DNA of 64,000 nucleotides from Cryomorphaceae bacterium (lineage in GTDB: Bacteria; Bacteroidota; Bacteroidia; Flavobacteriales_D; SKUL01). Below the pieces are notes generated by a model. The model had not been told where the DNA came from. It saw nothing but the letters and a program-made list of their open reading frames with translations, and ran no database searches. The position numbers and the translations under genes were made by a program. Below, in pieces: positions 18,872 through 28,966 of the stretch (the stretch's first letter is position 1; the number at the start of each line of letters is the position of its first letter). Location of the stretch: positions 1 through 64,000 of the forward strand of contig REDV01000083.1 of the NCBI GenBank assembly GCA_007695365.1. Direction: 5' to 3'.

Positions 18872-19471
18872 ATGAAGGATTTTTTGAAGAACCTACTCGA
18901 CCGATTCGCGCTAACGTTCCGAAAAGAACAATACGGACCAAAGGTCTTTTGCATCGGTTACAACAAAACCGGCACAACCACGCTCGGTAAAAGTTTGGAA
19001 ATGCTGGGCTATCGCAATTCATCTTTCAATCCACGTGTCCACAACGAGTACTTTCAAAAAGGCAAAATTGATAAAGTATTGCAGTACGCGGCCAAATTTG
19101 AATCTTTCGACGATTTGCCATGGTTGCACCCCAACCTCATTCCCAAACTTGACAAGACATTTCCCGGCAGCAAGTTCGTATATCTTGAGCGAGACGAGCG
19201 GTCGTGGAAGCGCTCATACAGAGAGTGGTACTTTCTTCAAAGGGGCGAATATCCCGACGAGGAACGCGGTTACCACAACTACCTGGTTCATCAACAGTTT
19301 GTGTTGAAGTATTTTGCCGGACGGGAGCAGGATTTAATCTGTCTGGAAATTAAAGATCCACAAGGATTTCGAAAACTCGCAGAGTTCCTCGGTAAGCCAG
19401 TAATACGCGATGATTTCCCGCACTTCAATCGCACCAGCGAAATGAAAAAACGGAAGGCTCAAAACGTCTGA
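18872..19471 (+). CDS. Sulfotransferase-family protein
   Basis: 199 residues. The 5'-phosphosulfate loop FCIGYNKTGTTTLGKSL (about 26-42) is the PAPS-binding motif of sulfotransferases, and FPGSKFVYLERDERSW matches the second (3'-phosphate) motif. It would move sulfate from PAPS to an unidentified sugar, lipid or small molecule. It is short for the family and has no signal peptide. It stands between two divergent transcripts; an element TAATTTCG at about 18856 lies just upstream. Confidence 0.82.
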   Translation: MKDFLKNLLDRFALTFRKEQYGPKVFCIGYNKTGTTTLGKSLEMLGYRNSSFNPRVHNEYFQKGKIDKVLQYAAKFESFDDLPWLHPNLIPKLDKTFPGSKFVYLERDERSWKRSYREWYFLQRGEYPDEERGYHNYLVHQQFVLKYFAGREQDLICLEIKDPQGFRKLAEFLGKPVIRDDFPHFNRTSEMKKRKAQNV

Positions 19472-21757: not shown

Positions 21758-22846
21758 ATGTCAAGATTTCACGCCCTTCGCGTAAAGCATATCCAGAGAG
21801 AAACCCCCGAAGCTGTTTCTGTAGAATTCGACGTTCCCACTGAACTGAAAGAAACTTTCAAGTTCAAGCACGGTCAATATGTGGCCATTAAAGTGGACGT
21901 GAACGGCGATGAACTGCGCAGGTCTTATTCTATCTGCTCCAGCCCGCATGAAAACAAACTTTGCGTAGCCGTTAAAGAAATTGAAAACGGACGTGTTTCG
22001 GGTTATTTTAATCGTGAACTGCGCGAAGGTGATGTGATGGAGGTAATGCCACCACTCGGAAATTTCACCGTTCCTTTGGATGCAGGCAACCGCAAAACCT
22101 ACGTGGCTTTTGCTGCCGGAAGCGGAATTACCCCAATTATCTCCATTCTAAAGGCCGTATTAGAAACTGAACCTAACAGTACTTTTCGGCTCTTCTACGG
22201 AAACAAGGAGAGCAAGTCGGTGATTTTTCATAAGGAGCTCGAAGAGCTTCAGGCGCGTTATACCGACCGCTTTCATGTACATATTCTTTACAGCCGCCAG
22301 CGCTCGGGCGACCCACTTTTTGAGGGCCGAATAAGCCGCGAAAAGATTGAGGCACTGGCGGAGAAATATCCTGCTGTAACGCGTGCAGATGAGTTTTTCC
22401 TCTGCGGTCCCAAACCGATGATTGAGGCTGCGTCGGATCTGTTGCAAGCAAGAGGCGTGGCCAAAGAAAAAGTTCACTTTGAACTCTTCACCACGGCCAT
22501 TCCCGGTGAAGTGGCCGATGCCGATCCTGATACCCCGGAAAGCAAGGGGCCGGAAGAAAATTCCGGCATTTCCAAGGTGCTGATTATTCTGGACGGCGAT
22601 GAAACCGAAATAGAAATCCCGAAGGGAACCACCATTCTGGACGCAGCCATTGATGCCGGTTTAGATGCTCCTTTTGCTTGTACCGGCGGTTCATGCTGTA
22701 CCTGCAGGGCAAAAATGCTGGAAGGTCACGCCGAAATGGAAATCAATTATGCGCTCACAGATAAAGAAGTAGCAGACGGCTACATTCTCACTTGCCAATC
22801 GCATCCAACCACTCCGCGAATGGTGGTAGATTTTGATGCCTCCTAA
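21758..22846 (+). CDS. PaaE-like flavin/NAD(P)H-2Fe2S reductase
   Basis: 362 residues in the order FAD domain (RRSYSICSSP), NAD(P)H domain (FAAGSGITPIISIL, FFLCGPKPMI) and a C-terminal plant-type 2Fe-2S ferredoxin with Cys308, 313, 316 and 346 in ACTGGSCCTCRAKML. This is the layout of PaaE (phenylacetyl-CoA epoxidase reductase) and related class I oxygenase reductases. No phenylacetate genes are nearby, so the electron acceptor is unknown; in Bacteroidota such stand-alone genes are common. It overlaps the convergent lipase gene by 4 bp at the stops. Confidence 0.85.
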   Translation: MSRFHALRVKHIQRETPEAVSVEFDVPTELKETFKFKHGQYVAIKVDVNGDELRRSYSICSSPHENKLCVAVKEIENGRVSGYFNRELREGDVMEVMPPLGNFTVPLDAGNRKTYVAFAAGSGITPIISILKAVLETEPNSTFRLFYGNKESKSVIFHKELEELQARYTDRFHVHILYSRQRSGDPLFEGRISREKIEALAEKYPAVTRADEFFLCGPKPMIEAASDLLQARGVAKEKVHFELFTTAIPGEVADADPDTPESKGPEENSGISKVLIILDGDETEIEIPKGTTILDAAIDAGLDAPFACTGGSCCTCRAKMLEGHAEMEINYALTDKEVADGYILTCQSHPTTPRMVVDFDAS

Positions 22847-23961
22847 TCTGCCGCTTCGAAAAAAGGTGTTTCCATCTTTTCTGCAAGAAAGATGTACGGA
22901 CTGTGTTGATGGTGACCAAAAATTTCTTTCGGGTCATCAGGATATTTCTCCCGGTACTTATCATCGGGCTGCAACACAATAGTGGTTCCGGTGCGCACGT
23001 AGTTATTACTCGCAACAAAAGGCGGTAGTATCAGACCTTCGAGACGATTCTGCACCATTCGCTCTGTGAGTTCTCCGAGATATTTCTGATAGCGCTGTTG
23101 TGCCTTGCGCGTAGGTTTATCCAGGTGATTGTAGATGTGTCTGGCCACAATTCTCTGCGGCAGCTTTTGCGCACGAATCAATGCGTCCACATGCAGAAAA
23201 GGATTGATGCGGTTAAAGTCATCAAATGTTTGAACGGATATCGGCACCTCAGGAACCCAATCCGCAGAATTTACCACGTTGTAGGCCCACCCGTTCTGCG
23301 TAAGGGCTTCATAGTTGTACGCAAAATACAGATTACCCGGCTTTGGGGCGGCGCTACAATAAGTTTTGAAACGGATTTTTTCCGAAAGTGTACCTTCTTT
23401 CTGCATGTGCAGTAAATGAGCTGTAAGCAGGTAAGCAATGGCACCGCCCTGACTGTGTCCAACGATATAAATGTTGCGGATTTTGCGATGAGAAAGGTCG
23501 CGGATTTTCGGAATAACATCCCGCGCAATAAAAGCCATTCCTACTGTCCAGCCTGCGTGCACCGCTGCATCGGGATGCATTGCCAGCGTATAATCAAACA
23601 TTTCATTGGGAGCGAGCTGAAGCGTTCCACGAGCTGGAATCATCGCTGCGTAAATATTCTCCAGCCAGCTGTCCTGTTCAGGTGTTGTTCCGCGAATACT
23701 TATGACAGCAGCCGTCCGATCCTCATTAAGCCACAGATCATAATAGTTGTCCAGGCCCATTACCGGACTTTGATATGCCCTGTAAAAACTAACGGGAGAC
23801 TCAAATTGCTCAATGTATTCGTCGACCAGCGTAGTTTGCACAGAAACCCGCAGCATTTCCAGGTATTCTTCTTTATTGAATCCGGGAGCAAACTCTTGAG
23901 CAATGAATATGCTATGCTGCATCAGGGCAGCTAACATCAAAAGCAAAGGCAGTTTTTTCAT
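22843..23961 (-). CDS. Secreted lipase class 3 family protein
   Basis: 372 residues. A signal peptide (to FIAQ) precedes an alpha/beta hydrolase domain: oxyanion strand ISIRGTTPEQDSW (88-99) and nucleophile elbow IVGHSQGGAIAYLL with Ser170, matching the Lipase_3 (fungal lipase-like) pattern. Candidates for the catalytic Asp lie in NSADWVPEVP and for the His near HVDALIR or HIYNHL. It should hydrolyse ester bonds in the periplasm or outside the cell. No T9SS tail is seen. Confidence 0.85.
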   Translation of the reverse strand: MKKLPLLLMLAALMQHSIFIAQEFAPGFNKEEYLEMLRVSVQTTLVDEYIEQFESPVSFYRAYQSPVMGLDNYYDLWLNEDRTAAVISIRGTTPEQDSWLENIYAAMIPARGTLQLAPNEMFDYTLAMHPDAAVHAGWTVGMAFIARDVIPKIRDLSHRKIRNIYIVGHSQGGAIAYLLTAHLLHMQKEGTLSEKIRFKTYCSAAPKPGNLYFAYNYEALTQNGWAYNVVNSADWVPEVPISVQTFDDFNRINPFLHVDALIRAQKLPQRIVARHIYNHLDKPTRKAQQRYQKYLGELTERMVQNRLEGLILPPFVASNNYVRTGTTIVLQPDDKYREKYPDDPKEIFGHHQHSPYIFLAEKMETPFFEAAD

Positions 23962-24125: not shown

Positions 24126-25355
24126 CTACCTTACCACCACCCTTCTCCGCTCCGCTTCCTCTTTGTGGTGAATGTGCAAAATGTACACTCCTTTGCCGAA
24201 GTGTGCCAACTGCAAGTCGTGCTGGAGCGCTCCTGCAGCAATCATCGATTCCGAATGCACCATCCTGCCGGATACGTCAAAAACCGTGATGAAGACTTCA
24301 CCCAGAAAAGCACCACCAGCAAGGGTAATGCGATCCGCAGTGGGATTGGGATACAGCCTTACTTTTTGCAGCTGCAGCGAGACAGAGCTGGCGAGGATGT
24401 CGCAGTCTTTGATGGTACCGTCGGGTGCGTTCGGTGCGCCCGGGAAGATATCAGCATCCGTATCGTCGCAATCGAGGTCGTTGTCCACAAAACCTTCCGG
24501 AGGGAAGCACTCCCATACTGAAACCTCGGGGTTTCCAAACCCATCGCCATCGGCATCTTCAAAATACCACATGGGTTCAAAGACTTCAACCCACACGATA
24601 AGGCTGTCGGTTTCCGGCTCAACAGCGGTACCTTCCATAGCCGTAACACTGTACATGATGGGATGTAATCCCGAGCCTGCTTCAGCGGGGTCAAACACAT
24701 TTCCCGAAACACCCGGGCCGCTGAAATCTCCTCCGGCAGTACCGGTTGAAATCAGGGTTCGCGCAGAATCGGTAGTGCAATACGCAATGGTATCCAGCCC
24801 GGTAAAAGAAGCATCGGGTAGTATGCGTAAAATAACGTCAATACTGATTTCTTCACCATTGAGAGTAGCGGGTGGCAAAAAACCACCGCAAGAGGTGCTA
24901 AGAAGCCAGGCCTGCACATCTGCCTGAAAAGATACGCTGAAAAGAAAAAGACCTGCCTGCTGGGGTGTTCCCTCCAGAAACCCGCAACCATTGGCCGGAG
25001 GGGAGTAACTGTTTTCGTTGAATCCCCCGGTTATTCCTACCGGTAAACCTGTAAATTCCGGGTTGTACATCTGAATAACGATACCGGAAGCAGAGGAATA
25101 GATTGGGTCCAATATACTTCCCGGAATACACCCTGTTGTGATGTGAAAGGAGATGTTGTCGAAATAAGGCTCGTTGATCTTGCCGGGAATGGTTTCATCC
25201 TGACAAACACCGCCGTAATCAGGTAATTCGCTAAGGCAATCTTCCGGTTCGCACTGGCTGAATGCGGTGGATGCACTGCTGCAAACCAAAAGAAGAGCAA
25301 AAACCACCCGGAAGATTGAAATCTCTGTACATCGCACGGGCTTAGATGTTTTCAT
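24126..25355 (-). CDS. Secreted protein with T9SS C-terminal sorting domain
   Basis: 409 residues. A signal peptide to about FSQ is followed by a beta-rich ectodomain with paired Cys, a metal-binding-like segment DADGDGFGNPE with NDLDCDDTDADIFPG, and a C-terminal type A sorting domain (LYPNPTADRITL... GKGVYILHI... RRVVVR). It is exported by the type IX system to the surface or medium. I recognise no enzyme domain. Its start overlaps the stop of the MscS-like gene by 14 bp (25342-25355), so it belongs to that operon, which is an odd partner for a membrane channel-like protein. Confidence 0.8.
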   Translation of the reverse strand: MKTSKPVRCTEISIFRVVFALLLVCSSASTAFSQCEPEDCLSELPDYGGVCQDETIPGKINEPYFDNISFHITTGCIPGSILDPIYSSASGIVIQMYNPEFTGLPVGITGGFNENSYSPPANGCGFLEGTPQQAGLFLFSVSFQADVQAWLLSTSCGGFLPPATLNGEEISIDVILRILPDASFTGLDTIAYCTTDSARTLISTGTAGGDFSGPGVSGNVFDPAEAGSGLHPIMYSVTAMEGTAVEPETDSLIVWVEVFEPMWYFEDADGDGFGNPEVSVWECFPPEGFVDNDLDCDDTDADIFPGAPNAPDGTIKDCDILASSVSLQLQKVRLYPNPTADRITLAGGAFLGEVFITVFDVSGRMVHSESMIAAGALQHDLQLAHFGKGVYILHIHHKEEAERRRVVVR

Positions 25356-26067
25356 GGTTCTTCATTTTGGTTTTCACATACTTCTCAATGTTGCCCAACG
25401 CTGAACGATCAACCGGAAAAACCGAAAGTTGGTAGCGCCCTGATTCTGTTTGGCTCACCTGCACGGGCTGTACGGAGGCAGTCCACGGACATTGTTCAGC
25501 CCATTGGCGCAATTGTCGTGAAGCATTCTCCGGCTCTGCCTCGGGCCAAGAAATTTCAAAGCGGTCGGGCATATTCAGGGCGCGATCGGTTTGGCGGGCG
25601 TAGGATTGAAAGGCTACTTCGGTATAGGGTATGCTCAGCAACTCGCCTGAATCATTCAGCACACCCAGCGATTGCAAGTAAAAAGCAGCCACCTGTCCGT
25701 TTCCGTGACTGGTTCGGATACTGTCACCCAAACGAAATCTTCGCTCCAAACGAATCATCAAACCGCTGAATGCCTGCATCCATGTTTTGAATCCCGCGAT
25801 AAATACAACCGCCAATACCACAATAGTGAGCAGAAAATTCACCTTAATCAAATGGAAAAGAGCCCAGGAGGAATAGCCTGCCCACGCAGCAAACCGCACA
25901 CGAAAATCCCAGCGCTCAATCATTTTAAGGTACTTCCGCTCCTTAATCAACACCAACACATACCGATCGAGTATCCGGAAGAACAAGTACAGCAGGACTC
26001 CCACAATTACCAGAAAAATCATCTGGCGAATGGGGTTGTTGTCAATCATGTCGTAGGCTGTTTCCAT
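25342..26067 (-). CDS. MscS-like membrane protein
   Basis: 241 residues with about three membrane segments in the first 110 and a soluble C-terminal part. The segment FSGLMIRLERRFRLGDSIR followed by GQVAAFYLQSLGVLNDSGELLSIPYTEV resembles the TM3b/beta domain of MscS channels (fxGDxI, short beta strands, IPN-like IPY). The Gly/Ala-rich packing of MscS TM3 is not evident. It may gate ions or only share the fold. It begins 4 bp after the stop of the large ATPase gene, so its function is probably tied to it. Confidence 0.68.
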   Translation of the reverse strand: METAYDMIDNNPIRQMIFLVIVGVLLYLFFRILDRYVLVLIKERKYLKMIERWDFRVRFAAWAGYSSWALFHLIKVNFLLTIVVLAVVFIAGFKTWMQAFSGLMIRLERRFRLGDSIRTSHGNGQVAAFYLQSLGVLNDSGELLSIPYTEVAFQSYARQTDRALNMPDRFEISWPEAEPENASRQLRQWAEQCPWTASVQPVQVSQTESGRYQLSVFPVDRSALGNIEKYVKTKMKNHENI

Positions 26068-26071
26068 TACT

Positions 26072-28966
26072 CTAAGGTATCAATTTTATTTCGCGCAGGT
26101 ACTGCTCAAGATAGGGGCGAAGCGCACGGTTGATTTCAAAAACATCCTTGCTAACTTCCACGACAAGGGTGGCTCTTTTCATCGTGTTTAGCTGATGTCG
26201 CACCCAGGTTTCACCTTCGAGGTTAAAGAGCATAACCATCCGCTCAAGGCTTAATGAACGATGCAGGTATAGGTTGTACAGCAAGGCTTTCCAGTTGGCA
26301 TTTCGAATGTCGGGAATAGACATATTGCCAGGATCCGAAACCCAGATAGCTCCTTTGCTCACCTGATTGACACTTCGCACCCAGTACCTCAATGCCAGTC
26401 CGACATTGCCCTCAGAGCGACGGTATAGCTTTTTGACAAGCTTCTCCATTTTTCTAGACTTCAAGCCCTCTGCCTGTTTTTGTTCGTTTTCGAGCAACAG
26501 GCCACCTGTTTCGTGTCGCTTCCAGATGGCATCGCGGGTTTCTTCAAACGATGCAGGCTTGATCACAATAGTGCCAACAAGGTGCTCACCAAGCGTTATT
26601 TGCGATGAAATCATTCTAAAACCCTCATTTCCTGCTGATAGCAAAAAGAAATGCCTGTGTCCGAAGCGTACAATCAGTTTTTCGAGTGCCAGAAGCGCCT
26701 CTCCTCCACCCTCAGCACGCAGCCACCACTGCTCAATATCATTAAAAATGAATACCGTGCCTTCCTGAACAGATGTGAGAATACTGCGCAGGGTCCCCTT
26801 GGGGTTGCCAAGAGCTTTTCCTATCTGAGCGAACAAATCTGAGGCACTGTGACTCCCTCCCTGAGGTGGTTCAATGCGGATGATTTTGCCTTTAATCAGG
26901 TTGCCGGCTATGTGCTCAATCAGAAAGGTTTTTCCTGATAGGCTATCTCCAGTTACAATCAGGGCTCCACCTGAGCCACCTTTCATACGTTGAACAGCTG
27001 AGCGGGCAACCACCATTTCGCGGTTCCGGACGTGGATGGCACTTCCTGTATTGAGATGCCTGCCGCCAAAAAGCTGCTTGTAGTAGTACGGGAGATCCGA
27101 GTCAATGTGCGGTGGCAACTTGAGTGTGTCCAGAAAATCAAGCATCCGTGCCGTGTCGTTATCCAACTCTTGGTACTTCCGCTCGTAGCGGGCAACCACA
27201 GCTTCGTATTGCCTTCGGGAAATGAATTGTAAAAACTCATCCTTCAAGGCACTCACCCTGGAGAAGCGTTTACCCAACCACTGATAAAGCAGCGGTGAAG
27301 ACTTGTCTTTATCACTCTGAATGGTGAGCTGAGCCGCTCTTTCCAGGACAGTTTCTGTCTGCAAAACCCCAAGCAGTTGAAGCCGCATATCGAGCAGCAT
27401 GGCACCAAAAGCTTTCTCAGTCTTTTCGAGCTCTTCGCGCGCTTCTTGCGCTGTTTGTTCCGATTGTTCAAGCACCGATTTCCAATCTTCACCTTCAGCC
27501 TTTGGTTCGCTGTCAAAACTGTACGAAATCAGATTTGCCGTATTCACCACCTTGCCATTGATGCGGTTCAATTTAGAGGTAATGTCTTGAATTTCTTTAC
27601 GGTAAGGCTCAACCAAAGTAGTGTCAATCAAGTAGTCGGCAATACGCGCTATTACAATATCTTTTTGAGGCAAGCGCTTGGTGAATGTAGCACCCGACCA
27701 CTCTTTTCCGGTGTTGAGCAGTGTGCATGATTCAGGAAGCATTGCTGTTGCCTCATCACTTCCACTTTCCACCCTTTGAATAAGCAATTGCGGATTTAAA
27801 AACAGTCGTTCGTTCAACTTAAAAACCGTTTCCTCTTCGCCAATATCCTTGTTTGCTTCTTTGCGCAAGTGTTCAATTCCATCAAAAAACACGTTGATAT
27901 TGTCGCGAACAGCCTTAAAGTATTGGCTCCTAACAGTAGCTTCAGAACGCTGTAAAACAGATAGTATGTTAGCCAAAACAAGCTGAAACCACAGTCCTCC
28001 TTCCATGTGTTGCAGAAACAATTTCTGGTTTTGCGCCCAAGCCTCAGGGAAGTGCCGCAAGCGATTGAGAAGTGCGGACTGCGTTTTTCCCGTGAAATCT
28101 ATTCTTCTCGCCCGAATGAGACCGTTTATGTCAACATCGCACGCAGCCCTGGCCAGTTCCTTCGCCATGGAATCCACCAAAGCTGAGAGCTTTTCGCCAA
28201 ACCGCTTGTGCATGCATTCCGCTTCATCTTTGAGTTTACTAAAAACACTCTGCAATTCATTTTGGTTGCCGTTATTTTGACTTACAAGTGGGCGCTCTAT
28301 AAGGTGCTTTTTCACAAGCATCTGTGTCTTTTCTGCCAGTTGGTAATTGTTCTGTACCCACTCCCCCATCAGCCGCTGAAATCCGGGCAGCAAAAAGGTA
28401 TCTGTCCAAACAGCCAGTAGCTCATGAAGGGCAACATGGGTGCGTTTTGCCCCTCCGAGTCTTCGCCAAAACTTCAAACGCGTTTTGGCTTTTCTAATTC
28501 TGGCGCTATCATCCGGGTGCACCGCCAAATCGGCTATCTGCAGTGCACGCTGAAATACTTTTTCATGTTTGCCCGGTAATTGCTTTACCTGGTCTAACCA
28601 AATCTGGATGCCCTGCCCGAGTGCCTCTTCCTGCTGCTCAAGGGGTTCTGTGGCTTCACGAAGCGCCTCTTGTTGCAGCTTGTTTAAAAAAACCTTGCTA
28701 CGTTCAGAAAGCTCTTTTGTGGTAAGTGTATCATATTCTGAACAATAGACCAACAACAGTTCACCCATGCTGCTCACAATTCCTCGCCAGTGCTCCGAAA
28801 CCGAACCCAGAGCGCTATTGACGAATACCTCGTTGACTTCCTTAAGTTCGGATACTACTTCATGCAGTGCTTCATCAAGGCCCACTACGGGCGAATCAAA
28901 TCCCTCCGGAGATCGTTTCTCCACGGAAATCTTCTCAGCGCTGGTATCCTTCTCTTCTTCTAGCAT
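26072..28966 (-). CDS. Large AAA+-like ATPase with long helical N-terminal region, function unknown
   Basis: 964 residues, no signal peptide or membrane helix. Residues 1 to about 620 are predicted mostly helical and coiled-coil-rich with no family I recognise. The C-terminal third holds a P-loop domain: Walker A GDSLSGKT (673-680), Walker B VFIFNDIE (about 738-745), a sensor-1-like SAGNEGF (Asn780) and a sensor-2-like GNVGLALRYW (Arg860). The last 80 residues look like a winged helix (SLSLERMVMLF ... FEINRALRPYLEQYL). This resembles Orc/Cdc6-TniB type AAA+ proteins in layout. It is the first gene of an operon with an MscS-like protein and a T9SS cargo. Confidence 0.75.
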   Translation of the reverse strand: MLEEEKDTSAEKISVEKRSPEGFDSPVVGLDEALHEVVSELKEVNEVFVNSALGSVSEHWRGIVSSMGELLLVYCSEYDTLTTKELSERSKVFLNKLQQEALREATEPLEQQEEALGQGIQIWLDQVKQLPGKHEKVFQRALQIADLAVHPDDSARIRKAKTRLKFWRRLGGAKRTHVALHELLAVWTDTFLLPGFQRLMGEWVQNNYQLAEKTQMLVKKHLIERPLVSQNNGNQNELQSVFSKLKDEAECMHKRFGEKLSALVDSMAKELARAACDVDINGLIRARRIDFTGKTQSALLNRLRHFPEAWAQNQKLFLQHMEGGLWFQLVLANILSVLQRSEATVRSQYFKAVRDNINVFFDGIEHLRKEANKDIGEEETVFKLNERLFLNPQLLIQRVESGSDEATAMLPESCTLLNTGKEWSGATFTKRLPQKDIVIARIADYLIDTTLVEPYRKEIQDITSKLNRINGKVVNTANLISYSFDSEPKAEGEDWKSVLEQSEQTAQEAREELEKTEKAFGAMLLDMRLQLLGVLQTETVLERAAQLTIQSDKDKSSPLLYQWLGKRFSRVSALKDEFLQFISRRQYEAVVARYERKYQELDNDTARMLDFLDTLKLPPHIDSDLPYYYKQLFGGRHLNTGSAIHVRNREMVVARSAVQRMKGGSGGALIVTGDSLSGKTFLIEHIAGNLIKGKIIRIEPPQGGSHSASDLFAQIGKALGNPKGTLRSILTSVQEGTVFIFNDIEQWWLRAEGGGEALLALEKLIVRFGHRHFFLLSAGNEGFRMISSQITLGEHLVGTIVIKPASFEETRDAIWKRHETGGLLLENEQKQAEGLKSRKMEKLVKKLYRRSEGNVGLALRYWVRSVNQVSKGAIWVSDPGNMSIPDIRNANWKALLYNLYLHRSLSLERMVMLFNLEGETWVRHQLNTMKRATLVVEVSKDVFEINRALRPYLEQYLREIKLIP

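Follow-up and report, generated by a model that had tools for sequence, protein, structure and literature searches.

In animals, kinase-controlled cation-chloride cotransporters (CCCs) determine cell volume and chloride levels; the regulation of bacterial CCCs has, to our knowledge, been little studied. In TrkH-TrkA and Kef-type systems a cytosolic nucleotide-binding regulator controls an ion transporter. The locus described here lies in a 64,000-nucleotide stretch of a Cryomorphaceae bacterium (GenBank assembly GCA_007695365.1, contig REDV01000083.1, positions 1 to 64,000; hereafter the window) and comprises a gene for a 964-residue P-loop ATPase (26072..28966, minus strand) followed on the same strand by a gene for a 241-residue MscS-like membrane protein (25342..26067). 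We propose, with a probability of roughly 0.6, that this pair is an ATP-switched controller of ion flux or turgor; it would be what is left of an ion-homeostasis system, namely its controlling half. Our confidence in the architecture itself is high.

The connection to the CCCs (SLC12, TC 2.A.30; NKCC1, KCC and the archaeal MaCCC) is seen in the relatives of the ATPase. Of 60 related genomes surveyed, 20 contain a homolog. With a single exception, the homologs outside the genus are part of open frames 1,637-1,706 residues long; the full-length fusions in most relatives span ~1,650-1,750 residues. The front half of the fusions is a CCC, matching TIGR00930 with E values of 1e-105 to 1e-119 and the structures of NKCC1 and KCC at E~1e-68, and the window ATPase aligns with the ~930 residues directly after the SLC12 C-terminal domain. 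The window protein starts where the SLC12 domain of its relatives ends and is equivalent over its whole length to their cytoplasmic tail (helical/AAA+, ~930-1,000 residues), whereas the APC-fold transporter domain of 12 transmembrane (TM) helices that the relatives possess is absent. The relatives carry a full CCC, in which the residues of the NKCC1 Na+ site, including its serines, are kept as ATLSSA-type motifs in 57/62 fused proteins; 58/62 retain Pro/Thr at the K+ site, and the equivalent of NKCC1 Asn298 is Thr (residue roles from PMC7889885). Known CCCs differ in having neither a ~930-residue helical/AAA+ tail nor an MscS-like partner gene, and most of the Bacteroidota CCCs seen here are likewise ~740-800 residues long and devoid of both. 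One unfused CCC of 743 residues (L139:3690-5918) scores far nearer the profile of the fused CCCs than other unfused CCCs do, and is possibly a relative of the pre-fusion form. Another Bacteroidota genome contains three tandem open reading frames (ORFs) matching the CCC/APC profile, two of them weakly (L127:835-6954).

The window protein descends from these CCC-ATPase fusions. In a tree rooted on distant full-length homologs from a phylum-level search, the CCC-fused proteins form one clade (support 100) and the window protein is nested inside it with fused Crocinitomix proteins (support 99); this was a quick tree with long branches, and exact sister relations within it are unsure. An approximately unbiased (AU) test rejected the arrangement in which the window lineage is held outside the fused clade (p=0.00125). 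Because of this nesting and the AU rejection, the best reading of the window form is that its transporter was lost secondarily. The window strain's own genome, which is 99.98% complete, contains no match to AA_permease or TIGR00930, and no CCC was found in it. On an earlier tree at least five changes of state between standalone and fused forms were counted, a figure which includes L032, a member of the outgroup in the rooted tree. Among the other standalone cases, the genomes G001, G031, G454 and G457 contain no CCC and G453 and G455 contain another one. The genome of locus L061 has a standalone ATPase/MscS-like pair and, separately, a CCC-bearing open frame of 1,792 residues (L124, G453:C9).

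Both genes of the window pair are still under purifying selection. When the window is compared with a congener, the ATPase shows a ratio of nonsynonymous to synonymous substitution rates (dN/dS) of 0.064-0.098 and the MscS-like gene one of 0.056, at a dS of ~0.75-1.1.

The two genes are separated by 4 nucleotides (26068-26071), and the first-pass annotation, made on this stretch alone, had made its idea of a joint function depend on their being neighbours in other genomes as well. They are: in a sample of 299 genomes of the order, 54 encode the ATPase, and in 49/54 the MscS-like gene is its immediate neighbour. Three of the five exceptions lie at or near contig ends (G512, G479 and G488), one is a fragmentary match (G494) and one, G536, has no explanation. 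A wider sample consisted of 80 named loci, 74 of them evaluable, from Bacteroidota, Chlorobiota, Ignavibacteriota, Calditrichota and Fidelibacterota plus two bins labelled Gemmatimonadota and Pseudomonadota; here the MscS-like gene stands beside the ATPase in 61/74. It was found in 0/18 loci with an unfused CCC (9-10 kb examined), compared with 2/2 loci with a fused one. The MscS-like gene tracks the ATPase and not the transporter.

The C-terminal part of the ATPase (residues ~641-960; 26087..27046, minus strand) is an ORC/Cdc6-like AAA+ domain with a winged helix. Pfam detects AAA_22 in the protein (E=4.7e-5), and an AlphaFold2 model built from 59 alignment rows has a mean pLDDT of 82.3 over the whole protein, with long helices. 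A Foldseek search with this model returned ORC2 (1w5t, E=4.8e-7) and Cdc6/Orc1 (2qby, 2.7e-6) as the best folds, together with RuvB, TnsC and 2qen, an archaeal ATPase of STAND-related fold. Walker A reads GDSLSGKT (residues 673-680; 26927..26950) and is intact in 51/59 homologs, while the Walker B region, VFIFNDIE (residues 738-745; 26732..26755), is followed by two conserved tryptophans (E745 in 57/59, W747 in 58/59 and W748 in 56/59). Both motifs had been placed at these residues by the first-pass annotation, whose probable winged helix also agrees with the ORC/Cdc6 fold matches. The sensor-2 arginine that it assigned to position 860 does not stand up, since Arg is found there in only 6/59 homologs; nearby is a GNxGxAL motif (G856 in 57/59), which we take to occupy the place where ORC/Cdc6 proteins carry that arginine. 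Walker A is degraded, for example by loss of the Lys, in L048, L049, L050, L055, L056, L057, L062 and L079, which suggests that some members of the family may work without ATP hydrolysis.

N-terminal to this domain lies a mostly helical region (residues ~30-624; 27095..28879, minus strand) that is kept in all architectures of the family. Searches of Pfam and NCBIfam with the ~620 N-terminal residues gave no match, the whole protein gave a single, chance-level match among PDB sequences, and the structural matches of the model are confined to the AAA+/winged-helix part, with none for the ~600-residue helical region. The first-pass annotation was thus right that this part resembles no catalogued family, although full-length homologs do exist and the family profile matches distant ones across nearly their whole length. 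The protein shares the AAA+ core, Walker A and B and the winged helix with ORC/Cdc6- and STAND-type ATPases; it differs from them in having no conserved sensor-2 arginine, in its E-x-WW and GNxGxAL motifs and ~600-residue helical region, and in the attachment of its family to ion transporters or MscS partners.

The MscS-like protein matches MS_channel_2nd (PF00924) above the curated cut-off (E=3.7e-5); in a search of its own genome this beta domain maps to 25615..25773 on the minus strand (E=1.9e-5). The AlphaFold2 model (56 rows, pLDDT 90) predicts three TM helices, TM3b, the beta domain and an alpha/beta C-terminal domain, the same arrangement as in MscS channels. Foldseek aligned it with E. 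coli MscS at E=2.3e-10 but with TM-scores of only ~0.4, so the packing of its helices differs from that of the solved channels. The protein is also short, is linked to an ATPase, and does not have the Gly/Ala-rich motif of the pore helix TM3a, where small residues make up 23% compared with 38-59% in the canonical MscS proteins of the same genome.

Two further architectures of the ATPase family bear on this difference. Besides the CCC-linked class I, distant homologs comprise a class II, with ATPases of ~970-1,050 residues whose neighbouring MscS gene mostly encodes ~325-375 residues, and a class III of ~1,470-1,510-residue fusions with an N-terminal antiporter domain (Na_H_Exchanger, confirmed by Pfam in 3/5), whose operons contain MscS, TrkH and TrkA. 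Shorter, diverged ATPases adjoin a Na_H_Exchanger gene in L163 and L166. Of the distant loci, 19/20 have an MscS-family gene next to the ATPase. We scored the canonical TM3 motif as G[IVLA]A[VIL]G[FIL]A and found it in 14/14 partners of those distant ATPases in which no transporter domain was recognised, a count that includes L032 as well as L164 and L165 with their over-extended reading frames. It occurs in 0/5 partners of the antiporter fusions and 0/56 class I partners, a few of which, the window's included, belong to ATPases that lost their transporter secondarily, and is missing too from the partner in L163, where the ATPase lies next to an antiporter without being fused to it. Retention of a canonical pore helix by the MscS partner is therefore largely limited to systems with no attached transporter, and the degenerate class I TM3 of the window partner is a matter of descent. 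The class III loci (L153, L155, L156, L160 and L161), whose operons also include a further predicted membrane protein, apparently form an undescribed monovalent-cation super-operon. Elsewhere, three MscS-family genes occupy ~4.2 kb beside a standalone ATPase homolog (L154:1282-5498).

In the mechanism that we favour, an ATP-switched controller, the MscS-like protein would report membrane tension or ionic state and the AAA+ domain would act as a nucleotide-dependent switch. The helical region would pass the state of this switch to the transporter in the fused classes, or to the canonical MscS channel in the standalone class, such that ion flux follows turgor; in the relatives the recipient would be a Na+-coupled CCC of SLC12 type, bearing the helical/AAA+ protein as its cytoplasmic tail. 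Since the cotransporter has been lost, no replacement was found and selection persists, the output in the window strain is probably the MscS-like partner itself or an unlinked transporter acting in trans. The fusion or linkage of the ATPase to several kinds of ion-transport gene strengthens the case for control of ion flux or envelope stress. The first-pass annotation had arrived at ATP-driven control of a pore or an envelope stress response; the pairing has proved conserved and specific, and such control is still the best reading, but a pore is less secure given a partner without the canonical pore-helix motif. More broadly, and tentatively, a P-loop ATPase and an MscS-family protein could together be a transferable module plugged into at least three ion-flux systems, namely cation-chloride cotransport, Na+/H+-exchanger-type antiport with Trk K+ uptake, and the stand-alone MscS channel. 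Under this scheme, fusion of the ATPase to a transporter would lead the MscS partner to lose its canonical pore helix and become a sensor or adaptor, and the window strain would have deleted the transporter and kept the controller.

Several observations weigh against a controller. In the window strain no transporter is left for it to control in cis, and the non-canonical pore helix makes gating of a pore doubtful there. Contact between the two proteins is deduced from gene order, and the pair is separable, because in 13/74 loci, 11 of which are CCC fusions, no MscS-like gene lies beside the ATPase. The eight degraded Walker A motifs among 59 homologs indicate in addition that hydrolysis may not be essential. 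A variant compatible with the controller would make the MscS-like protein a membrane anchor, assembly factor or tension-sensing adaptor and not a channel, its pore function having gone once the transporter became the effector. The distribution of the TM3 motif and the low content of small residues in TM3a speak for this; retention of the MscS fold with TM3b and beta domain, a sequence that by itself may still allow conduction, and the want of a known effector in cis for a pure adaptor speak against it, and we regard it as a possibility somewhat short of even.

Other explanations fare worse. It could be supposed that the transporter fusions arose later than the window form, which would then be an original and self-sufficient unit of ATPase and MscS channel, as the standalone ATPases with canonical MscS partners of distant clades might suggest; the rooted tree and the AU test, which place the window within the CCC-fused clade, led us to reject this, and the class I degenerate TM3 of its partner points the same way, leaving the idea very unlikely. 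A decaying remnant, in which tail and neighbour drift towards loss after the cotransporter domain went, would accord with the missing transporter and with the lineage of L109, where neither transporter domain nor MscS-like gene is present, but it is contradicted by the low dN/dS of both genes and sits badly with intact frames and Walker motifs; of all the readings we give this one the least credence. The STAND-related fold, with 2qen among the matches, raises the prospect of an anti-phage defence system in which the ATPase is the sensor and the MscS-like protein the membrane effector, and a pore-forming partner would fit the design of abortive infection. No known defence family or defence-island context was recognised by PADLOC, whose matches were only marginal (best E=0.0044), or among the neighbouring genes, a comparison that was not exhaustive. 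The neighbours are housekeeping genes, the linkage is stable across the order, and the ATPase is fused or linked to ion transporters. Defence was rejected on the PADLOC result and the neighbours, and is in our view improbable.

A third gene on the same strand (24126..25355) overlaps the MscS-like gene by 14 nucleotides (25342-25355), and the ORFs of all three, with the 4-bp gap and this overlap, were found as first annotated. It encodes a 409-residue protein with the C-terminal sorting domain of the type IX secretion system (T9SS; Por_Secre_tail, PF18962, E=9.4e-10; TIGR04183, E=2.1e-9). Its co-location with the pair is confined to the genus, where G001 has an 83% match; it was not found beside the ATPase/MscS-like pair in other families, and a 61% paralog lies elsewhere in the genome (G000:C106). 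On these grounds we rejected it as a member of the system: between the two roles first suggested for it, passenger fits and effector does not. The locus is otherwise bordered by housekeeping genes (MsrB/SelR, YceI, TspO, CBS, Band_7 and similar). Downstream of the T9SS gene, on its strand, is a class 3 lipase gene (22843-23961; PF01764, E=2.8e-18), whose product apparently carries a signal peptide, and a sulfotransferase-domain protein (PF17784, E=2.9e-20) is encoded at 18872-19471 amid ordinary housekeeping genes.

Our search of an open-access library, which does not extend to subscription papers and preprints, turned up no account of either the CCC-ATPase fusion or the ATPase/MscS pair. The parts all come from known fold families; what appears to be undescribed is the way they are combined and the repeated use of that combination with different ion-transport systems. 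As a putative case of nucleotide-dependent cytosolic control of ion transport, the window pair would be known in kind. The analogy is with TrkH-TrkA and Kef-type transporters, and one class of the ATPase shares an operon with TrkH and TrkA; here, though, an AAA+/helical protein would stand in place of the RCK/KTN domain as regulator, with an MscS-family protein as its partner. If our proposal is correct, these bacteria would possess a volume and ion controller that takes tension as its input, is switched by nucleotide and acts through a transporter, and the lineages that keep the pair after losing the transporter would make its regulatory half directly testable.

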